Positions 8,251 through 25,552 of a stretch of 25,552 nt of DNA are shown here, piece by piece (position 1 is the first letter of the stretch; each line of letters begins with the position of its first letter). The translations under genes and the position numbers were made by a program. Origin of the DNA: a virus; the IMG/VR virus record IMGVR_UViG_3300008117_000267, positions 1 to 25,552 of that record; one strand, written 5' to 3'. The notes below the pieces were generated by a model. That model ran no database searches. It was given only the letters and a program-made list of their open reading frames with translations, and was not told the origin of the DNA.

Positions 8251-9024
8251 ATGAAAATCGCCTATTGTTCCGACCTACATTTAGAGTTTGCCGACCTCAC
8301 TCTGACCAATGAAAACCAAGCCGATGTGTTGGTGCTCGCCGGTGATGTATGTGTAGCGAAACACCTCCAAACCAAAGAAGTATTTCAGAATTTTTTCCAA
8401 AGAGTTTCCAAAGAATTTCCAAAGGTGCTCTATGTCATTGGTAACCATGAGCATTATCATTACTTGTTTAATGACACCGTGGCTGACATAGAAGATGCTC
8501 TATTCCATTTACCCAATATCCATGTGCTTGACAATGCAACCATAACCATAGATGACATTACTTTTATTGGTGGTACCATGTGGACAAATATGAATGAAGA
8601 AGACCCCATGACCATAGGTGCCGTTACTGACTTTATGCCTGACTGGAGAATCATCAAGTATTTTGATGGAGTGAACTATCGTAAATATACACCTCAGCTA
8701 TCCATACAAGAGTTTGATAGAACTGTCCAGTATATAAACATTGTGACCAATCCAAAAGACAAGAAGTTTGTGGTGATTACACACCATAGCCCATCATTCC
8801 GATCCTGCCATGAGAAGTGGTCTGGTGATATTGGTAATGGCGCCTTTCACACCAACCTAGATGAGTTTATTACATATCGTCCACAGATTAAGGCCTGGAT
8901 CCATGGACATACCCATGACCCTTGCGAATATGATATAAGTACCACAAGAATCGCCTGTAACCCAAGAGGTTACCCTAAAGAGAACCAGCATAACCAATTT
9001 CAATTAAAATACATGGAGGTGTAA
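8251..9024 (+). CDS. Calcineurin-like metallophosphoesterase
   Basis: 257 residues with the full dimetal motif set: Asp8-Leu-His10 (SDLHLEF), Gly-Asp32, Gly-Asn65-His66-Glu67, a His-His pair in VITHHSPS, and Gly-His-x-His in the IHGHTHD segment (residues 218-222). The family hydrolyses phosphomono- or diesters; phage members include lambda phosphatase and 2',3'-cyclic phosphate or nucleotide processing enzymes. The substrate here is not evident. It has its own promoter-like element. It is distinct from the PlcP-type enzyme at 23188. Confidence 0.85.
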   Translation: MKIAYCSDLHLEFADLTLTNENQADVLVLAGDVCVAKHLQTKEVFQNFFQRVSKEFPKVLYVIGNHEHYHYLFNDTVADIEDALFHLPNIHVLDNATITIDDITFIGGTMWTNMNEEDPMTIGAVTDFMPDWRIIKYFDGVNYRKYTPQLSIQEFDRTVQYINIVTNPKDKKFVVITHHSPSFRSCHEKWSGDIGNGAFHTNLDEFITYRPQIKAWIHGHTHDPCEYDISTTRIACNPRGYPKENQHNQFQLKYMEV

Positions 9025-16631: not shown

Positions 16632-17090
16632 ATGAAAACTTTAATACAATTAACAGTTGCTGGTATTCTATTATTGCTGATTTGCAAAGAAGTGAATTCA
16701 GCTCCTTTACCAGATTACACATTTAAGAGTCCGTCATTCAACGGCAATGGTTACTCTAGCCATGTTTTAACGATGGAGAACCAAGAACACAGCCGTAGAG
16801 AATCTATAAAGAAAGAGATTCAAGCTGGTTTAGATAAAGCGAAGAATGATGCACAAAACACGAACTTACAGAAGTTCCTGAATAATTTAGAATCAAGGAT
16901 TTATGCACAGATTAGTCAAAACTTGGCTACAGCTATGTTTGCAAATGGAGGTTCTTCCTCTGGCACATTGAACTTTGAAGGTAATACAATGTTTTGGACT
17001 AAAGACAGTTCCAATGTGTATTTGACCGTAACTGATACAATAGGAACTCAAACAAGTATAACGATACCATTAGGACAATTTCAATTCTAA
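16632..17090 (+). CDS. csgF: Curli assembly protein CsgF
   Basis: 152 residues (E. coli CsgF 138). A signal peptide (residues 1-24, ends VNSA) is followed by YTFKSPSFNGNG (residues 29-40), which aligns with the mature N-terminus of E. coli CsgF (FQFRNPNFGGN), the part that inserts into the CsgG pore and makes a second constriction. The helical segment NLQKFLNNLESRIYAQISQ and beta-rich C-terminus fit the rest of the family. It acts at the outer membrane in curli secretion. It overlaps csgG (TAATG). Confidence 0.86.
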   Translation: MKTLIQLTVAGILLLLICKEVNSAPLPDYTFKSPSFNGNGYSSHVLTMENQEHSRRESIKKEIQAGLDKAKNDAQNTNLQKFLNNLESRIYAQISQNLATAMFANGGSSSGTLNFEGNTMFWTKDSSNVYLTVTDTIGTQTSITIPLGQFQF

Positions 17091-17899
17091 TGAAAAAGAT
17101 ATTTGTTTTATTTCTGTTAGTATTACTAACAGGTTGTGCTACTACAAAGGTTTTAACCGAACCTCAAAAGCCAACTATTACTAAAAACTTGATGCAAAAA
17201 GAGTTTGATATTTTACCACCACCAAATGGTAAAAAAGTAGCGGTAGCTGTTTATAGTTTTGCTGATAAAACCGGCCAAAGAAGACCGAGTGCTACAATGG
17301 CTCAATTATCAACAGCCGTCACACAAGGTGCAGAAGCGTTTCTCATTAAAGCTTTACAAGATGTTGGTCGTGGTGAATGGTTTGATGTAGTAGAAAGAGT
17401 TGGCATTGATAATCTAACCAAAGAACGAATGATTATTCGCCAAATGCGTGAAGCTTATGAAGGCGATAAGGCTAAACCTTTATCACCAATGATGTTCGCT
17501 GGTATGATTATTGAAGGCGGTATTGTTGGATACGATTCAAGCACGAAAAGTGGTGGTTCAGCTGCAAGAATGTTGGGCATTGGACCACAAACTCAATATT
17601 CAGAAGATATTGTAACAATTAGTTTAAGAGCTGTAAGTGTCAACACAGGTAAAGTATTGGTATCTGTGACCACTCAAAAAATTATATATTCTGCTTCTGA
17701 TAGTTTAGCAGTATTAAAATTTGTGAAAAATGGAACACAAGCATTTGAATTTGAAAGCGGATTGACTGTCAATGAGCCAGGAACTTTAGCAGTAAAAGCT
17801 GCAATTGAAGCCGCTGTGGTTGAATTAATTAAAGAAGGACAACAAAAGGGTGTTTGGGATTTTGCAGTAACATATGTTGCACCCGAAAAAAAGGAGTAA
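17090..17899 (+). CDS. csgG: Curli secretion channel CsgG
   Basis: 269 residues (E. coli 277). Lipoprotein signal with lipobox LLTGC (Cys16). The motifs KKVAVAVYSFADKTGQRRPS, GRGEWFDVVER, ERMIIRQMR, the central IEGGIVGYDSS and the beta-hairpins SEDIVTISLRAVSVNTGKVL are all characteristic of CsgG. Nine subunits make a 36-strand pore across the outer membrane that lets curlin subunits out. A full-length copy suggests a working pore. Confidence 0.95.
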   Translation: MKKIFVLFLLVLLTGCATTKVLTEPQKPTITKNLMQKEFDILPPPNGKKVAVAVYSFADKTGQRRPSATMAQLSTAVTQGAEAFLIKALQDVGRGEWFDVVERVGIDNLTKERMIIRQMREAYEGDKAKPLSPMMFAGMIIEGGIVGYDSSTKSGGSAARMLGIGPQTQYSEDIVTISLRAVSVNTGKVLVSVTTQKIIYSASDSLAVLKFVKNGTQAFEFESGLTVNEPGTLAVKAAIEAAVVELIKEGQQKGVWDFAVTYVAPEKKE

Positions 17900-17902
17900 C
17901 AA

Positions 17903-18691
17903 ATGAACAAGATAATTAATCTGTTCATGGCTATGTTTTTATTGGTAAGTGTTAGTGTATTTGGTGCTGACAACAGTATCTACATTGACCAGAGTGGTGA
18001 TAATTCTACAATTGATATTACGCAGACAGGATCAGGTAATGTGATTCGTGGCATTCAAGGTGTAGGAACAGGAAACACAACACCAGCTAAATTGTATGGT
18101 GGTTCAAGCACAATTGACATTCAACAAATTGGTTCAACCAATACATTGAATTTAGGTTTTAATGCTTCAACAGCCACAGGTCGTGCTTATGGTATTGATT
18201 TAACATACTATGTAACTGGTAATTCTGGTACAGCAACTATCAATTCTAATAATGCTGGAACAGGAACATCTGGTTCTAACTTTATTGATGTTCGTCAAAC
18301 TGGTAATTCAGCTTCAATTAACTTAAATGTTTTAGGTAGCAAAAATAATTTCACAGCTGTAACATCTGGTGGTTCTGGTAATAGTATCACCGCTACAATC
18401 AGCGCTGATGAGAGTGTAAATAATATTTCAATGACTGGCGGCGGTGGCAACACATTAACACAAACCACTTCAAGCAATAAGGCCACAAATAATATTACAA
18501 CAGTTGGTGCAAGTAATGGCATAGTATTAACACAATCTGGAACAGCTGGTACAAATGGTCACGCATTTACACTTAACTTAACTGGTTCAAGTAACACATT
18601 TGGTATTACTCAATCTGGAACTATTGATACAACAGTTAATGTATTAAGCACTGGTAGTGGTAATACATGGAACATCACAACAGGTAACTAA
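17903..18691 (+). CDS. Secreted curlin-repeat protein (CsgA-like)
   Basis: 262 residues: signal peptide (1-22, ends VFGA), then IYIDQSGDNSTIDITQTGSGN and further Ser-x-x-(I/L)-x-(I/V)-x-Q-x-G-x-x-N repeats (IDIQQIGSTNTLNL, IDVRQTGNSASINL, VLTQSG, FGITQSG). These spaced Gln/Asn ladders are the amyloid core pattern of curlins. It is longer than CsgA (151) with less regular repeats. AAAGGAG ribosome binding site. Likely client of the CsgG/CsgF pore, giving an extracellular amyloid or a surface beta-solenoid. Confidence 0.82.
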   Translation: MNKIINLFMAMFLLVSVSVFGADNSIYIDQSGDNSTIDITQTGSGNVIRGIQGVGTGNTTPAKLYGGSSTIDIQQIGSTNTLNLGFNASTATGRAYGIDLTYYVTGNSGTATINSNNAGTGTSGSNFIDVRQTGNSASINLNVLGSKNNFTAVTSGGSGNSITATISADESVNNISMTGGGGNTLTQTTSSNKATNNITTVGASNGIVLTQSGTAGTNGHAFTLNLTGSSNTFGITQSGTIDTTVNVLSTGSGNTWNITTGN

Positions 18692-18701
18692 TAAGTTTGA
18701 T

Positions 18702-19814
18702 GTGAAACATCTTCTTACATTATTTCTCTTACTATGTGGTTGTTCATCAGCCTTGGCGGCAGTTGGTAACATCACAGACCAAGTAAACACTCCGCCAAGC
18801 ATCCTTCGTAAATCTTCCACTCTCACCGGTGCCAAAGGTACTGGTGTTGAGATGGCAGATGCTATCAAAACTACACAAGGTAAAGTTGGCATTACATTTG
18901 CTGATGATACCAAAGTCCAAGTAAATGAAAATTCAAAGTTAGTCATTGATGAGTTTGTATATGACCCAAATAATAAAAAGGGCGGTAAGTTAGCCGTTAA
19001 TGTAGCACTTGGTACGGTTCGTTATGCGTCTGGTCAAATCGCACACAATAATCCACAATCTGTTGCAGTTAATACTCCATCAGCCACTATCGGTGTTCGT
19101 GGTACCGATTTTACAGCCACAGTTGATGAATTAGGTCGTAGCACAATCATTCTTTTGCCAAGTTGTCCTCGTGGTTGGACTGATATTAAAAAAGATTGTG
19201 TAACTGGAAAGATTGAAGTGACCACAGATGAAGGCAAAGTGATTATGGACCAGGCCTTTCAAGCTACACGAGTTGAATCAAAAGAAACAAAACCATTTAA
19301 GCCCGTAATCGTCAACCTCACAGAAGACCAAATATCTAACATTCTTATTTTATCGCCACCAAAAGAATTATTGGAATCAGATAAAGATAAAACAGAAAAG
19401 AAAAAAGATATGAAAGGTGTTCTTGATGTTGATTTTTTAAGAGAACAAGGTTTATCTAACGCTTTTGAGAAACAAGAAAAAGAAGTTTATCAGGATAAAT
19501 TAAGTCGTAACTTTCTTGACCAAGATTTCTTAGCTAATGTGTTAGATATTATTAATGCACAATTGGCCGCACAATTAGATTTACTTCGTAAAACGAAATC
19601 AGGACTTTTACCAGATTATGTGCCAACTTCAGGGGTTGTGGTTGAAGTTGATGACAATTCAGTCACATTATGTCGTGAAGGTAATGGTGATGTTCAATGT
19701 ATCACTACACCTAAAAATCAAAATACTACTGTAACACAAATACAAGGTCCAGTAGAAATTAAAAATAGGATAAACACCGGTGGCAACACGATTATTAACG
19801 CTACTCAAAATTAG
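18702..19814 (+). CDS. FecR-domain periplasmic or lipid-anchored protein
   Basis: 370 residues from the GTG at 18702, which gives a clean signal peptide; a GTG at 18657 would overlap the curlin gene. LLLCGCSS could be a lipobox (lipoprotein) or cleavage may follow ALA. The FecR domain spans residues ~60-140 (ITFADDTKVQVNENSKLVID, later LAVNVALGTVRYASG and TPSATIGVRGTDF). A charged helical region (~220-280) and a C-terminal NTTVTQIQGPVEIK follow. FecR domains sense or bind envelope ligands. The end overlaps the next gene by 35 bases. Confidence 0.85.
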   Translation: MKHLLTLFLLLCGCSSALAAVGNITDQVNTPPSILRKSSTLTGAKGTGVEMADAIKTTQGKVGITFADDTKVQVNENSKLVIDEFVYDPNNKKGGKLAVNVALGTVRYASGQIAHNNPQSVAVNTPSATIGVRGTDFTATVDELGRSTIILLPSCPRGWTDIKKDCVTGKIEVTTDEGKVIMDQAFQATRVESKETKPFKPVIVNLTEDQISNILILSPPKELLESDKDKTEKKKDMKGVLDVDFLREQGLSNAFEKQEKEVYQDKLSRNFLDQDFLANVLDIINAQLAAQLDLLRKTKSGLLPDYVPTSGVVVEVDDNSVTLCREGNGDVQCITTPKNQNTTVTQIQGPVEIKNRINTGGNTIINATQN

Positions 19815-21126
19815 TTTATTGCTAATATGTTTTAACGCATATGCAGTTGATAATGCTATTAAGATGGCCTATAATTTCACCACAGTATCTCAAACTGTGG
19901 TATTTGATAGTGCTATGCAATCTGGTGGAACATTAACGCTATCTGCTCAAATAGCTGATGGTGGTGGTAGAAATCCTGGTGACCCAATTACACTCAAATT
20001 GGTATTCTATAATAGTTCTAATGCTGTCATTACAACCGTTCAACAAGCATACACGATGGTTCTTGGTGTAGCTGCATCCACATATTCTGTAACCGCTACA
20101 AACTGTGGCGGAAGTTGTGCAAGTGTGGCTTATGTAAGTGTGCAATTTTATGGTAAAGATGGTGGTTTTTGGGCAGGAAATTACGGGCCATATATTCAAT
20201 CTCCTGTGTTGACATATAATGGTGGCGGTAATATACTTTACAATCCACAATTCGGTATCTACAATACAAACACTTATGCACAAGGTTGGACAAGTTCGGC
20301 TGGTTGGCAAAATTGTGCCTTATATTCTGGTGCAGCTACTTGTGTGATTGATAATGGCGCTCAAGTAAATGGTGGTACATATTCAGCTACGGGTGGTACA
20401 ACATCAGGAACTTCAGGTGGTTACACAGCGGCTCCAGCTGCACCAACTTACAGTTCAAGTATCACCACAGAACAACAAAGTCGTAAGACAAGTGAATCTG
20501 CTCAAAGAACAAGTCAATCAGGAAATGGAATCTATATTGACCAAATTGGTGATAACAATAATATTACAATTCGCCAAGGTATAACGATTGGTGGAAAAAA
20601 CAGAATTGAATTGTATGCAAATGGAAATAATAACACGCTTAATTTGAATCAAGGTTATAATGCAGACGGTTCTATTCCAATTTCTGAATTTAATAACCAC
20701 TATCAATATTTGAATATATCTGGTGCAAGTAATAATGTGACCACAAAACAAATAAACGGAACTTCAACTGTTGGCCATTTCATGGAAACAACCATAAGTG
20801 GTAATACGAATACTATTAATGCAACACAACAAGGAACAGGAAGTAAAACACTATTCTTAAATGTGAATGGTGGCTCAAATGGTGTTACTGTAAATCAAAA
20901 AGAAGGTGGGCAACATTATTTGGACTTATCTTTAACAGGAAATGGCCACACAGTTAATGCTACCCAACAAGGAACAGGTAATCATGCAGCTACCATAAGT
21001 TTTACAAACTCTGGTGGGGCATCAACATTAAACATGAATCAATCTGGTTCAACAAATCAGACATATTCAATAAATCAAAGCTGTGCTAATGCTTCTGGTT
21101 GTTCCACGACTATCACACAACCATAA
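19780..21126 (+). CDS. Two-part secreted protein with C-terminal curlin repeats
   Basis: 448 residues starting at a GTG inside the fecR-like gene; signal peptide (1-22, ends AYA). Residues ~25-230 form a beta-sandwich-like, Cys-containing domain (TATNCGGSCASV, GWQNCALYSGAATCV). A low-complexity Gly/Ser/Ala linker follows, then curlin-type repeats from ~247: NGIYIDQIGDNNNITIRQ, nearly the same as the start of the mature protein at 17903, then INATQQGTGSK and VNATQQGTGNH units. A CsgB-like nucleator or a surface-anchored partner of the first curlin is the best guess. Confidence 0.78.
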   Translation: MATRLLTLLKISLLLICFNAYAVDNAIKMAYNFTTVSQTVVFDSAMQSGGTLTLSAQIADGGGRNPGDPITLKLVFYNSSNAVITTVQQAYTMVLGVAASTYSVTATNCGGSCASVAYVSVQFYGKDGGFWAGNYGPYIQSPVLTYNGGGNILYNPQFGIYNTNTYAQGWTSSAGWQNCALYSGAATCVIDNGAQVNGGTYSATGGTTSGTSGGYTAAPAAPTYSSSITTEQQSRKTSESAQRTSQSGNGIYIDQIGDNNNITIRQGITIGGKNRIELYANGNNNTLNLNQGYNADGSIPISEFNNHYQYLNISGASNNVTTKQINGTSTVGHFMETTISGNTNTINATQQGTGSKTLFLNVNGGSNGVTVNQKEGGQHYLDLSLTGNGHTVNATQQGTGNHAATISFTNSGGASTLNMNQSGSTNQTYSINQSCANASGCSTTITQP

Positions 21127-21129
21127 ATA
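21122..21129 (+). promoter_or_regulatory. Late promoter box inside the envelope operon
   Basis: CATAAATA followed by CACAG, directly after the stop of the curlin-repeat gene and 23 bases before the autotransporter-like gene. Confidence 0.55.
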
Positions 21130-21151: not shown

Positions 21152-23188
21152 ATGAAAAAACTATTAGCCTTTATATTATCAATGGTGATTGGGTCGGCCT
21201 ACGCAGCCAACGGAATTTTATTAAACGAGTATGTTAAAGCTGGCGTCAATGAATTGACCGGTACACTAGGTTCAGGTGGCAACACATCTCCTGGTTTATT
21301 ATATGATAATACAGGTACTGGTACATTTAATACATCATATGATTACTTAACACCAGGAACTCCATTTGATGGATATACCGTTCGCCTTGAAGATTCTTCT
21401 GGTACATTGATTAGAACATACACAAACAATAACTCTGGCAACACCAGAGCTATTACAGGTGCATGGGTTGGTTCTCCTTCATCATCAAGTGCCATTTGGT
21501 CAGGAACAAATTCTGATTTTGATATTCAACACACTTATTCACTACCAAGTGGACAAAAGTATATTGATATTGATACGCAGATTACAGCTAACATAATAAT
21601 ACCTAAACTTTGGTTTGGTCGTTTTATTGATCCTGATGCTCGTGCAGATGCAGGTGACACTTCAGCAACAGATAATGTATTAGGTTATGGTGCTATACCA
21701 AGATACAATGTAGCATTCTCTGAAGCTATATCATCACGGTATGCTTTAGGTTTATATTCGTCAGCATCTAATGTTCGTGCAGGTATTACCGGATGGTCAA
21801 CAGACCCTAAAGCATATTATGCTAACGGCACAACAGGTTACGGTTCATATACAGATAACACATATGGTCAAGGTGATGACACAATTGGTTTAGGTTTCTT
21901 GGTTGAAAATGTGGCAGTAGGTGATATTATTAATTTCCGCTACGCATACATTTTTGGTCCATCTGCTTTTGGTGCAGCTACAAGTGCGATTGACGGTGGT
22001 GCTGGTGGTGGAACACCAGGTACTGTTCCTGGTGGTGGTACATTGACCGATGTCGGTTCAGCTACAGACGCAGCTGCTTCATCATCTGGTCCAACATTAG
22101 TAAGCACAGCAATATCAACAATTACTATTTCATCTACTGATGCTGTGAATATCAACTTACCTGTGGTAATTGGTTCTATTGCTCACCATGAAGCATCATA
22201 TACTGGCGGTATTCAAATCGTTGCTCGTGAAACAACCACAACAACGACAACACCAATGACAACAACTGTTGTGACTAAAGAAAGAACAACTTCAACATGG
22301 AGTGATAGTTCAACAACCTATGTTGATGCTACACCCGTTTCTACTGACACCTTATGGAATAGTGTTTCAACGGCTATTACAAACGATAGTTTTTCAGGTC
22401 GTATTGACCAACAAGAAAAATTATCAACACTTAACATTGGCATTAATCGTAGTTTGAATTCTGACCCATTTCGTAAAGACTTAATAGATTCAGGCAAAGG
22501 TCGTATGTTCCTAATTGGTAATAAATTGAATTCAAATATGAATAACGGCTATGATGCTAATTCAGATAGATTTGGTATTGGTGTTGAAAAAGATATTAAT
22601 GAAAATTGGATTTTAGGTGCTCAATATAACCGTGTAAATACTATTATGAAAGGTGTTGACAGCGATACTAGACAAGGTAAAAATCATTTTGGTTTATACA
22701 GTATTGTAAATAAGAACGACTGGATACTTAAAACGGATTTGGCTATTGCTGATAACAACATTACATCAAACCGAAATGTTGAAAATCTATTTTTCAATGC
22801 AAGTAAAACAAACGGTAAAGATATATGGTTAAGTAATCGTTTATACACACCTGAAATGAAAGGTTTTAGACCTTATGCTGGTGTAACACTTGCTAATAAT
22901 AAGCGTGATGGTTACGAAGAAACAGGAAGTGTGCAAACTTATAGAACAATAAGTAAAGTGTCTAATGGGCAAAATTATGCTGAAATTGGATTAAGATATG
23001 AAAAACGCATAGATAAGCTTACATTAGCAACTGAAGGTGGTATTACTTCTGATAGTTATAAAGATGTTAGTGGTTCTATGGCATACACATTTAATAAAAA
23101 CAGCCAAGCATCATTATATGTTAATCATCAAGCTAAAGATGATTTATCAACAAATACAATAGGTGTTATGGGTAGAATTGATTTTTAA
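21152..23188 (+). CDS. Autotransporter-like outer-membrane beta-barrel protein
   Basis: 678 residues with a signal peptide (1-18, SAYA) and strong AAAGGAG ribosome binding site. Residues ~20-290 form a beta-rich passenger-like domain with weakly repeated Gly/Thr/Asn stretches; a Gly/Pro-rich linker (TPGTVPGGGT) follows at ~290. The last ~240 residues (from ~440) show alternating strands (FGIGVEKDINENWILGAQYN, later FRPYAGVTLANN and YAEIGLRYEKRI) and end in Phe, as needed for Bam-assisted outer-membrane barrel insertion. It fits a phage-encoded surface adhesin or receptor-altering protein. The stop overlaps plcP. Confidence 0.82.
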   Translation: MKKLLAFILSMVIGSAYAANGILLNEYVKAGVNELTGTLGSGGNTSPGLLYDNTGTGTFNTSYDYLTPGTPFDGYTVRLEDSSGTLIRTYTNNNSGNTRAITGAWVGSPSSSSAIWSGTNSDFDIQHTYSLPSGQKYIDIDTQITANIIIPKLWFGRFIDPDARADAGDTSATDNVLGYGAIPRYNVAFSEAISSRYALGLYSSASNVRAGITGWSTDPKAYYANGTTGYGSYTDNTYGQGDDTIGLGFLVENVAVGDIINFRYAYIFGPSAFGAATSAIDGGAGGGTPGTVPGGGTLTDVGSATDAAASSSGPTLVSTAISTITISSTDAVNINLPVVIGSIAHHEASYTGGIQIVARETTTTTTTPMTTTVVTKERTTSTWSDSSTTYVDATPVSTDTLWNSVSTAITNDSFSGRIDQQEKLSTLNIGINRSLNSDPFRKDLIDSGKGRMFLIGNKLNSNMNNGYDANSDRFGIGVEKDINENWILGAQYNRVNTIMKGVDSDTRQGKNHFGLYSIVNKNDWILKTDLAIADNNITSNRNVENLFFNASKTNGKDIWLSNRLYTPEMKGFRPYAGVTLANNKRDGYEETGSVQTYRTISKVSNGQNYAEIGLRYEKRIDKLTLATEGGITSDSYKDVSGSMAYTFNKNSQASLYVNHQAKDDLSTNTIGVMGRIDF

Positions 23189-23937
23189 TGGATATTAAAA
23201 AATATAAAACAATTTGTATATCAGACACACATTTAGGCGCTCGTGATTCTAAAGCTGACCTACTTAACAATTTTCTAAAACATCATACCTGTGATAATCT
23301 GTTTCTCATAGGTGACATTATAGATGGTTGGAAAATACAACAAAATAAATGGAAATGGAAACAAAGCCACACAAATGTAATTCGTAGAATATTAGGTTAT
23401 AGTAAGCGTGGTGTTAAAGTCACTTATGTGACTGGTAACCATGATGAGTTTTTAAGGCCATTTATTAATCAGTTTGCTCTTGGCAATATTGTTATTTGTA
23501 ATCAAGCTGAATATCGTGATACAGATGATAATTTATTTCTAATCACTCATGGTGATATGTTTGATGGTATCACACGCATGGCTAAATGGTTAAGTTTTCT
23601 TGGTGATTCAGCTTATGATTTAGTTTTATGGATTAATACTAAATTTAATTACATACGCCATCGCTTTGGATTTGGTTATTGGTCATTGAGCAAATTTCTT
23701 AAACATAAAGTAAAAAAGGCTATTGATTTTGTATTTAAGTTTGAAGTCAATGTGACCGATTATTGTAGGCGTAAGAATTATGATGGTGTGATTTGTGGAC
23801 ACATACATACACCAGAGATTAAAATGGTTGGTGATATGATTTATATGAATGATGGTGATTGGGTAGAATCATGCTCAGCTCTGGTTGAACATGAAGATGG
23901 CAAGTGGGAAATAATTTATTGGAATAAAATATTATGA
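23188..23937 (+). CDS. plcP: PlcP-type metallophosphoesterase (phospholipase C-like)
   Basis: 249 residues with all dimetal motifs: Asp13-x-His15 (SDTHLG), Gly-Asp43 (IGDIIDGW), Gly-Asn84-His85-Asp86 (GNHDE), His121 (HGD) and Gly-His205-x-His207 (CGHIHTPE). The segments AKWLSFLGDSAYDLVLWIN, then GYWSLSKFLKHKVKKAI and NDGDWVESCSALVEH are typical of the PlcP group (often annotated as UDP-2,3-diacylglucosamine diphosphatase). PlcP removes the phosphate head group from phosphatidylethanolamine/glycerol to give diacylglycerol. Its partner Agt follows with an ATGA overlap. LpxH activity is a less likely alternative. Confidence 0.85.
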   Translation: MDIKKYKTICISDTHLGARDSKADLLNNFLKHHTCDNLFLIGDIIDGWKIQQNKWKWKQSHTNVIRRILGYSKRGVKVTYVTGNHDEFLRPFINQFALGNIVICNQAEYRDTDDNLFLITHGDMFDGITRMAKWLSFLGDSAYDLVLWINTKFNYIRHRFGFGYWSLSKFLKHKVKKAIDFVFKFEVNVTDYCRRKNYDGVICGHIHTPEIKMVGDMIYMNDGDWVESCSALVEHEDGKWEIIYWNKIL

Positions 23938-24926
23938 AAATATTAGTAGTTACTGATAATTTGAGAGACCAAGTTAATGGCGTTGTCACCACATACAAAA
24001 ATATTGAGGATATTGCTATTCGTAATGGCGATAGTATTGTTTATCTTGACCCCCGGCAGTTCCGTTATATTGATTGTCCTTTATATCCTGAAGTCAAACT
24101 TTCCTTTCCTACATTCTTTTTCAAAAAGATTAAGAAGATGGGTGCGGATAGGATACACATCGCTACGGAAGGGCCATTAGGTTTATGGGCTAAATTCTAT
24201 TGTGATTATAATAAAATACCATACACAACAGCCTATCATACCAAGTTTCCAGAATTTCTAAACAAACTCATATGGTTTCCTAAATTTATCACATATCGTT
24301 ACCTTAAATGGTTTCATAAGCATTCAAAAGCAGTTTTAGTTCCATCAAAATCAATGAAAGATGAGCTTGATGCTCGTGGCTTCAAAAACATAACAGTATG
24401 GACTCGTGGCGTTTCAAAAGAACTTATTCAAATTAGACCTGATTCAGAAAAATCACAGCCATTAAAATTATTATATGTTGGTCGTGTTTCAAAAGAAAAG
24501 AATTTAGATGTTTTGTGCCGATTAGAGAATGAGTATGATATTACCATAGTTGGTGATGGACCAATACTTAAAAATCTAAAACAAAGATACAAAAAAGTTA
24601 ATTTTGTTGGTTATAAATTTGGCAAAGAATTGTCAGAATATTATGGCAAAAATGATGTATTTTGTTTTCCAAGCTTGACAGATACATTTGGTATTGTTAT
24701 AATAGAAGCACTATGTAATGGATTACCCGTTGCAGCTTATCATGTTACAGGCCCACAGGACATTATTGAATATGGCGTTACAGGTTATATGGTTCAAGTT
24801 GGCAACAAGTTAAGTAGGGCAATTGAAATGTGTAAATCATTAGATAATACCAAGGTTCAATCAATATCAATAAGTAAATGGACTTGGGAAAATTGTTACG
24901 ATATATTTTTGAAAGCGATTAAATGA
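23934..24926 (+). CDS. agt: Agt-type GT4 glycosyltransferase (glycolipid synthesis)
   Basis: 330 residues, GT-B fold. Residues 75-83 (HIATEGPLG) and 100-107 (AYHTKFPE) are the acceptor-domain signature of bacterial diacylglycerol glycosyltransferases; VPSKSMKDELDARGF and LLYVGRVSKEKNLDVL mark the domain junction; Asp250-x7-Glu258 in SLTDTFGIVIIEAL holds the nucleotide-sugar. Agt adds glucose or glucuronate to diacylglycerol. With plcP this converts phospholipid to glycolipid, the known phosphate-saving exchange in marine bacteria. The start overlaps plcP and the stop overlaps the CHASE2 gene. Confidence 0.84.
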   Translation: MKILVVTDNLRDQVNGVVTTYKNIEDIAIRNGDSIVYLDPRQFRYIDCPLYPEVKLSFPTFFFKKIKKMGADRIHIATEGPLGLWAKFYCDYNKIPYTTAYHTKFPEFLNKLIWFPKFITYRYLKWFHKHSKAVLVPSKSMKDELDARGFKNITVWTRGVSKELIQIRPDSEKSQPLKLLYVGRVSKEKNLDVLCRLENEYDITIVGDGPILKNLKQRYKKVNFVGYKFGKELSEYYGKNDVFCFPSLTDTFGIVIIEALCNGLPVAAYHVTGPQDIIEYGVTGYMVQVGNKLSRAIEMCKSLDNTKVQSISISKWTWENCYDIFLKAIK

Positions 24927-25552
24927 AGAAATTATTATTAAGTCCTTGGACAGCCTTAATTACATTATTAGTAATTATATCAGTTATTTTTAATGGACCA
25001 ACTTTTGTTGAATCTGTTAAGCTAAGATATTTTGATACCTTAATTACAAAACAAAAACCAACTGTCAATAACATCTATACAGTTAATATTGATGATGCTA
25101 CATTAGACCGTTATGGTCAATGGCCTTTCAAACGAGACCAGCCTGAAGCTGACCGTTTAGGTGGTGATAAGGCACTTGCTGATACTCTCAAAGACCATCC
25201 TGTTATCCTTGCTAACACACCAAGTCAAGTAACAAAAAATAAAGCCAAGAAACCAGGTTCTGCCGTAATTGGTGCAGAACATGTCAATACAATCTATAAT
25301 TATTCCGGTGTTATTGCTAACATTCCATTATTAGAAGAAGCGGCTGTTGGTGTTGGTATGATTAACACACTACCAGAAATTGATGGTGTCAATCGCCGTC
25401 TTCCATTATTTGTATCCTATAATAACGAAGTTTATCCATCATTACCATTAGAAGTATTAAGAGTGATGTCTGGTGATTCTACATTTCAAGTTAAGTTAAA
25501 TGAAAATGGTGTTGAGAAGATGAGAATACCATCTTTCAGACCAATTGCTACA
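24923..25552 (+). CDS. CHASE2-domain membrane sensor protein (partial)
   Basis: The reading frame is open from an ATG (overlapping the agt stop) to the right edge; 210 codons are seen. An N-terminal membrane helix (SPWTALITLLVIISVIF) is followed by KLRYFDTLITKQKP and VNIDDATLDRYGQWPFKRDQ, the hallmark start of CHASE2 extracytoplasmic sensor domains. CHASE2 proteins usually continue with membrane helices and an output domain such as an adenylate cyclase or kinase; that part is outside the window. FecR and CHASE2 genes are often neighbours in bacteria, matching the fecR-like gene in this operon. Confidence 0.82.
   Translation, partial: MKKLLLSPWTALITLLVIISVIFNGPTFVESVKLRYFDTLITKQKPTVNNIYTVNIDDATLDRYGQWPFKRDQPEADRLGGDKALADTLKDHPVILANTPSQVTKNKAKKPGSAVIGAEHVNTIYNYSGVIANIPLLEEAAVGVGMINTLPEIDGVNRRLPLFVSYNNEVYPSLPLEVLRVMSGDSTFQVKLNENGVEKMRIPSFRPIAT

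Follow-up and report, generated by a model that had tools for sequence, protein, structure and literature searches.

A phage-encoded gene pair resembling bacterial plcP-agt, with a predicted role in phospholipid-to-glycolipid remodelling

Phages are phosphorus-rich, their lake and ocean hosts are frequently starved of phosphorus, and the known phage genes of phosphorus metabolism serve uptake or nucleotide recycling. The described systems closest to the locus reported here include: (i) the bacterial PlcP-Agt pathway, which is proven by experiment in Pseudomonas aeruginosa and SAR11/Phaeobacter (PMC8528852, PMC4796936, PMC8231724), with PA3219-PA3218 of P. aeruginosa established as PlcP and Agt1 by mutants and lipidomics (PMC8528852), (ii) phage phosphate genes controlled by host PhoB (cyanophage pstS and genes of S-PM2d, PMC10976474), and (iii) phage genes that act on host membrane lipids (cyanophage lipid desaturases; pssA and other marine viral lipid genes, PMC11360552). 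Bacterial PlcP-Agt and phage pstS under PhoB are already known; the open-access literature searched contains no plcP-agt pair in phages. The pair in question lies in a virus contig of 25,552 bases (positions 1 to 25,552 of IMG/VR record IMGVR_UViG_3300008117_000267; hereafter the window), where a plcP-like metallophosphoesterase gene leads into an agt-like GT4 glycosyltransferase gene. The pair is likely a phage-encoded PlcP-Agt module for phospholipid-to-glycolipid remodelling, with phosphate supply as its probable role in related phages.

The phage pair is like the bacterial pathway (P. aeruginosa PA3219-PA3218, SAR11 HTCC7211 plcP and agt/GTcp, Agrobacterium Agt) in gene order, protein families and catalytic residues, and in having Pho-box-like sites in many of the phage relatives. 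A preliminary description, made from the sequence of the window, had noted two genes that share an ATGA overlap and follow the order of bacterial lipid-remodelling operons. The coordinates and overlap agree with the sequence, both genes being on the same strand, and the plcP-agt1 pair on the P. aeruginosa plasmid pHPA0698-2 has both the same order and a 4-nucleotide overlap. By contrast with the bacterial pathway, the phage genes reside in phage genomes, form separate virus clades and in many phages have a GT2 in place of the GT4, and the window copy sits within a curli/CHASE2 operon without a Pho box. Similarly to the PhoB-controlled phage genes, these are phage genes with putative Pho boxes, and pstS directly adjoins plcP in several phages. 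Unlike those genes, the target would be membrane phospholipid, not uptake or nucleotide recycling, and the box is a TGTMAY direct repeat of the 11-bp type, set at a fixed distance from TAAATA, and not of the cyanobacterial type. The known phage lipid genes alter acyl chains or synthesise phospholipid; the present pair, by contrast, should remove phosphate and make glycolipid.

The sequences, their homology, gene order and recurrence, the glycosyltransferase exchange and the motif statistics described below are observed directly; both enzyme activities, the sugar, PhoB binding and the purpose of the phage pair are inferred. Acting as a metal-dependent phospholipase C, PlcP would split host phospholipid into a phosphate-bearing head group and diacylglycerol, to which Agt would transfer a sugar from a uridine diphosphate (UDP)-sugar; the membrane would thereby remain a bilayer as phosphate is released. 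In relatives of the window phage, host phosphate starvation may turn the module on through a PhoB site, and the freed phosphate may feed phage DNA synthesis.

Across 239 residues, the window metallophosphoesterase shares 51% identity (255 bits) with the P. aeruginosa PlcP encoded at the plcP-agt1 locus. This reference (L164; L numbers denote loci) is the pHPA0698-2 protein, encoded upstream of the glycosyltransferase and beside an adenylate cyclase gene, and is equated with PA3219 from gene context, which fits PA3219-PA3218 (PMC8528852), not from an accession match. The ligands of the binuclear metal site typical of calcineurin-like phosphoesterases (D13, H15, D43, N84, H121, H205 and H207) are present in the window protein and in 64 of 64 PlcP-like rows. 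The closest bacterial PlcPs found are 47-56% identical, and viral ones reach 99%.

The window GT4 is 38% identical to the Agt that adjoins the P. aeruginosa plcP, and carries the motifs GRVSKEKN (one A-to-S change from GRVAXEKN) and FPSLTDTFG (FPSXTDTFG). The SAR11 GTcp residues whose mutation abolished activity are reported (PMC8231724). The His104-Asp256 dyad of GTcp corresponds to H102 and D250, and, of the residues essential for binding of donor and diacylglycerol, Gly16, Gly82, Gly85, Arg163, Arg190, Lys195, Thr257, Phe258, Gly259, Glu264 and Trp320 (W316 or W318 in the window protein) are all matched, the residues being placed via motifs, without alignment to the GTcp sequence itself. 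The predicted structure is a GT-B fold (mean predicted local distance difference test score, pLDDT, 92.8). In the GT4 tree, which like the metallophosphoesterase tree is a quick search with no mixture model, 37 viral rows form one clade (support 99), which groups with the bacterial Agts linked to plcP (99). Outside lie WaaB, WaaG, an enzyme of MgtA-like type, more distant GT4s and further GT4s from the same bacteria; of these bacterial GT4s, one (L275) lands within the joint clade. A GT4 match was present in 444 plasmid records; the top-scoring matches among those sampled are plcP-adjacent glycosyltransferases of Sphingomonas and Roseomonas. By these features the window GT4 is Agt-like and apart from the glycosyltransferases of lipopolysaccharide (LPS).

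The pair is common in viruses, many aquatic phages among them, as the preliminary description had proposed checking, and is a virus lineage on genuine phage genomes. Viral scans returned 17 GT4 loci and, for a query specific to the window, 64 plcP loci, and a profile search of 600 viral candidates found at least 558 plcP relatives. The plcP-GT4 order is repeated in about 70 fetched loci, near-copies counted. Of the viral PlcPs, 34 rows form one clade (99), and a smaller set (pelagiphage Mosig and some marine contigs) is placed elsewhere in the PlcP tree. Comparisons with close relatives that allowed an estimate of dS give a ratio of nonsynonymous to synonymous substitution rates (dN/dS) of 0.02-0.09 for plcP and of 0.11-0.16 for the GT4 gene; both are under purifying selection. 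One human gut record labelled Bacteriophage sp. (MT836169.1, L003) is judged bacterial, as it holds a tyrosyl-tRNA synthetase and other cellular genes, and is left out of the viral counts.

Once identical PlcPs are removed, 128 plcP loci remain, of which 50 have a GT4 near plcP, 37 an unrelated GT2 (Pfam PF00535) and none both; the other loci have neither glycosyltransferase or end early. The glycosyltransferase is downstream and on the same strand wherever checked. With loci found by the glycosyltransferase query excluded, GT4 is present in 43 of 119 and GT2 in 37 of 119, with 0 loci having both compared to 13.4 expected (hypergeometric p 8e-10, a value that is overstated because the loci are related). 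The glycosyltransferase label switches at least 16 times on the PlcP tree by parsimony, and 4 to 8 changes are required even when only well-supported branches are considered (GT2 and GT4 versus all others). The bacterial loci fetched contained no GT2. That two different glycosyltransferase folds replace each other beside the same phospholipase argues for sugar transfer as the feature that counts. Other neighbours of plcP include a RimK-like ATP-grasp gene between plcP and the GT4 gene (L128:10895-11785; also L109, L118 and L106), a ribonucleotide reductase beta-like gene that plcP overlaps in place of a glycosyltransferase (L030, L031, L032, L033 and L035), and, in 11 loci (e.g., L107:13184-13888), a fatty acid desaturase gene no more than 8 kb from plcP, which may represent further membrane remodelling.

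Phosphate genes accompany plcP in several relatives. A pstS-like gene lies 60-127 bp 5' of plcP in four loci (L121, L134, L147 and L150), pstS adjoins plcP divergently in pelagiphage Mosig, a gene for a phosphate-selective porin (PF07396, 1e-38) is found after plcP in L094 and before it in L019, and phoH is present in 16 loci. The Pho-box-like repeat TGTMAY-N5-TGTMAY stands 5' of plcP in 20 of 126 loci (0.42 expected), mostly 33-64 nucleotides from the start. Controls gave 2 repeats on the other strand and 11 among 1480 control open reading frames (ORFs), of which 7 are pstS and 1 is the porin gene, and spacers of 1-4 and 6-12 gave zero upstream of plcP. TAAATA begins exactly 11 nucleotides past the box in 25 of 40 boxes. 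This exact composite has 25 matches in 3.57 million strand-bases and 0 in the reversed sequence; 15 precede plcP, 7 pstS, 1 the porin gene and 2 a gene of unknown function. The last begins MRFEDLA (L110:4880-5524 and L123:11999-12652) and has no Pfam match. TAAATA is enriched before ORFs generally in these phages and is thus probably a promoter element of theirs. It resembles the late -10 element of T4; most of the contigs tested showed no TAAATA ahead of gp23, so a late-promoter role in these phages is hypothetical.

Host PhoB is predicted to bind at the composite site, and this site together with the linked phosphate uptake genes points to phosphate supply as the purpose of the module in the relatives. 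With modest confidence, we favour the view that T4-type aquatic phages have a phosphate-starvation regulon of their own, in which a PhoB site and a late-type TAAATA at a fixed 11 nucleotides would drive plcP with its exchangeable glycosyltransferase, pstS and the porin gene, membrane phospholipid serving as a phosphate store for phage DNA. The occurrence of the module behind a putative phosphate-starvation switch in many phages suggests that the host membrane is mined for phosphorus. If so, this membrane would be a further phosphorus pool for phages, and host PhoB control would be tied to a phage-type promoter. Consistent with the preliminary description, which knew of no such pair in phages, no report of a phage plcP-agt pair was found in the open-access full-text literature searched, nor were its virus clades, the GT2/GT4 exchange or the Pho-box/TAAATA arrangement.

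Several points weigh against this interpretation. The plcP of the window itself has no Pho box. Neither glycosyltransferase is near plcP in 34 of the 128 loci, so plcP may be useful alone or a host glycosyltransferase may step in. At the column of GTcp Asp256, where the window has Asp, 21 of 52 viral GT4s have Glu; thus, some may use another donor or have another activity. The repeat pattern was derived from the first hits that an Escherichia coli-type consensus had given, so the evidence lies mainly in the controls with other spacers and reversed sequence; owing also to the relatedness of the phages, the test numbers are not independent. In addition, one study cautions against relying on Pho-box prediction in phages unless binding is demonstrated (PMC10976474).

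The gene neighbourhood of the window copy gives the best of the rival explanations its footing. In HTVC008M (a pelagimyophage) and Melnitz (a methylophage), the order csgF-csgG-curlin-FecR-hypothetical is followed immediately by a cyclase gene (CHASE2). The window has the same order, and differs in that autotransporter-plcP-agt is inserted between the last two genes (the 448-amino-acid protein and the CHASE2 gene), a slot that is empty in both cultured phages. Among relatives, the slot before CHASE2 holds plcP-GT4 in L006-L009 and L013, and plcP without GT4 in L017 and L018; as its contents differ, the module comes and goes there. Relaxed patterns of the Pho-box-like repeat gave no match on the coding strand of the window and only weak matches on the other strand, and no repeat is found 5' of the ATAAATA element that precedes the autotransporter gene. 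The PHO-box-like sites that the preliminary description had proposed to look for are, thus, a feature of the relatives and not of the window copy. With no Pho box and a place in the curli/CHASE2-cyclase operon, phosphate control is not claimable for this phage; in the window lineage the module may be expressed with that operon and hence have an envelope role.

The same enzymes may accordingly serve another purpose, in which a change of the envelope or inner membrane would block superinfection, tune lysis or aid the autotransporter and curli-pore genes, with phosphate as a by-product. The window lineage, with its pair beside csgF/csgG and CHASE2 (and, in the window, the autotransporter) and no Pho box, fits such a purpose, and the glycosyltransferases and curli genes of pelagimyophages are read as surface modification and the curli pores as lysis parts (PMC7029224, PMC9004378). 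Against it, the same genes in related phages are tied to pstS, the phosphate-selective porin and Pho-box-like sites, and bacterial PlcP is a phosphate-starvation enzyme. As a general explanation of the pair, the envelope purpose is considered rather unlikely; for the window copy, an envelope role is possible.

A lipid A/LPS module, in which the metallophosphoesterase would be LpxH and the GT4 an LPS glycosyltransferase, is highly improbable. Public records do name the phage and bacterial homologues UDP-2,3-diacylglucosamine diphosphatase, and the nearest solved folds in a search with the metallophosphoesterase model (only moderate, with pLDDT 80 and a weak cap region) are LpxH. This fold result arises because no PlcP structure came up; a sequence search of solved structures with the metallophosphoesterase gave no match. 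By contrast, the window protein is 21% identical to E. coli LpxH (29 bits) and fails both NCBIfam LpxH models (43.8 bits against a cut-off of 134, and 31.8 bits against 190). LpxH (13 rows, from plcP-bearing genomes and E. coli) forms a single clade with support of 100 in the metallophosphoesterase tree, and the P. aeruginosa plcP-agt1 row and all viral rows are on the opposite side. Seven positions are fixed differently between the PlcP-like and LpxH rows, including H85 (64 of 64 PlcP-like rows), which is Arg (R80) in 13 of 13 LpxH rows, such that the window has GNHD where LpxH has GNRD. Moreover, 11 of 12 plcP-bearing bacteria hold a separate, true LpxH above the cut-off, and the GT4 is distant from WaaB and WaaG. 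Scores, trees and residues thus rule out the LpxH and LPS glycosyltransferase identities, and the trees show neither of the placements (with LpxH, or with LPS glycosyltransferases or the MgtA-like enzyme) that would have spoken against the PlcP and Agt types assigned in the preliminary description. The window metallophosphoesterase is, as judged from its sequence, PlcP-like and not LpxH. In virome papers on marine and lake waters, lpxH is listed among the viral genes (PMC10653327, PMC9611531); if the PlcP-Agt reading is correct, at least some such viral lpxH/LPS biosynthesis entries would be phosphorus genes, possibly misnamed members of the same family.

Least probable of all is that a calcineurin-like phosphoesterase and a GT4 adjoin by chance, or are bacterial genes in a contaminated contig: both superfamilies are huge, phages often hold glycosyltransferases and phosphoesterases, and some phage-labelled records are bacterial (L003), but the low dN/dS and an order kept across tens of divergent viral contigs (of 25 longer contigs, 8 have a T4-type capsid gene and 16 a terminase gene; neither was identified within the window itself), along with virus-only clades and an operon as in cultured phages, refute this in substance.

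The features of the window are listed in Table 1. The chain of overlapping genes (autotransporter-plcP-agt-CHASE2) is longer than the pair first described, as plcP begins within the stop codon of the autotransporter gene (taATG at 23188), and an ATGA at 24923 is shared by the GT4 and CHASE2 genes. The ATAAATA element is a possible promoter of autotransporter-plcP-agt.

Table 1. Features of the plcP-agt locus and its operon in the window
Feature	Position	Strand	Basis
plcP-like metallophosphoesterase gene, 249 amino acids	23188-23937	+	Pfam Metallophos 5e-12
agt-like GT4 glycosyltransferase gene, 330 amino acids	23934-24926	+	Pfam Glycos_transf_1 1e-23
ATGA stop/start overlap, plcP to agt	23934-23937	+	read from sequence
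Autotransporter beta-domain protein gene, 678 amino acids	21152-23188	+	Pfam Autotransporter 6e-13
CHASE2-domain gene, N-terminal part, continues beyond window end	24923-25552	+	Pfam CHASE2 1.4e-15
ATAAATA, phage promoter-like element	21123-21129	+	sequence; 23 nucleotides 5' of autotransporter start
Upstream operon: csgF, csgG, curlin-repeat protein, FecR protein, 448-amino-acid protein	16632-21126	+	Pfam/PHROGs

The CHASE2 gene is kin to phage adenylate/guanylate cyclases and shares 35-38% identity with the HTVC008M and Melnitz cyclase genes. The 678-amino-acid autotransporter protein begins signal-like, and a similar gene is matched only in L094 among the relatives aligned. The csgF, csgG, curlin-repeat and FecR genes (16632-19814) are as in pelagimyophages, and a 262-amino-acid protein of this region has weak CsgA/CsgB matches. 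The contig also encodes a second metallophosphoesterase (8251-9024; PHROG 1649), of a family unrelated to PlcP; a near-composite Pho site precedes a relative of this gene in L103 (12047).

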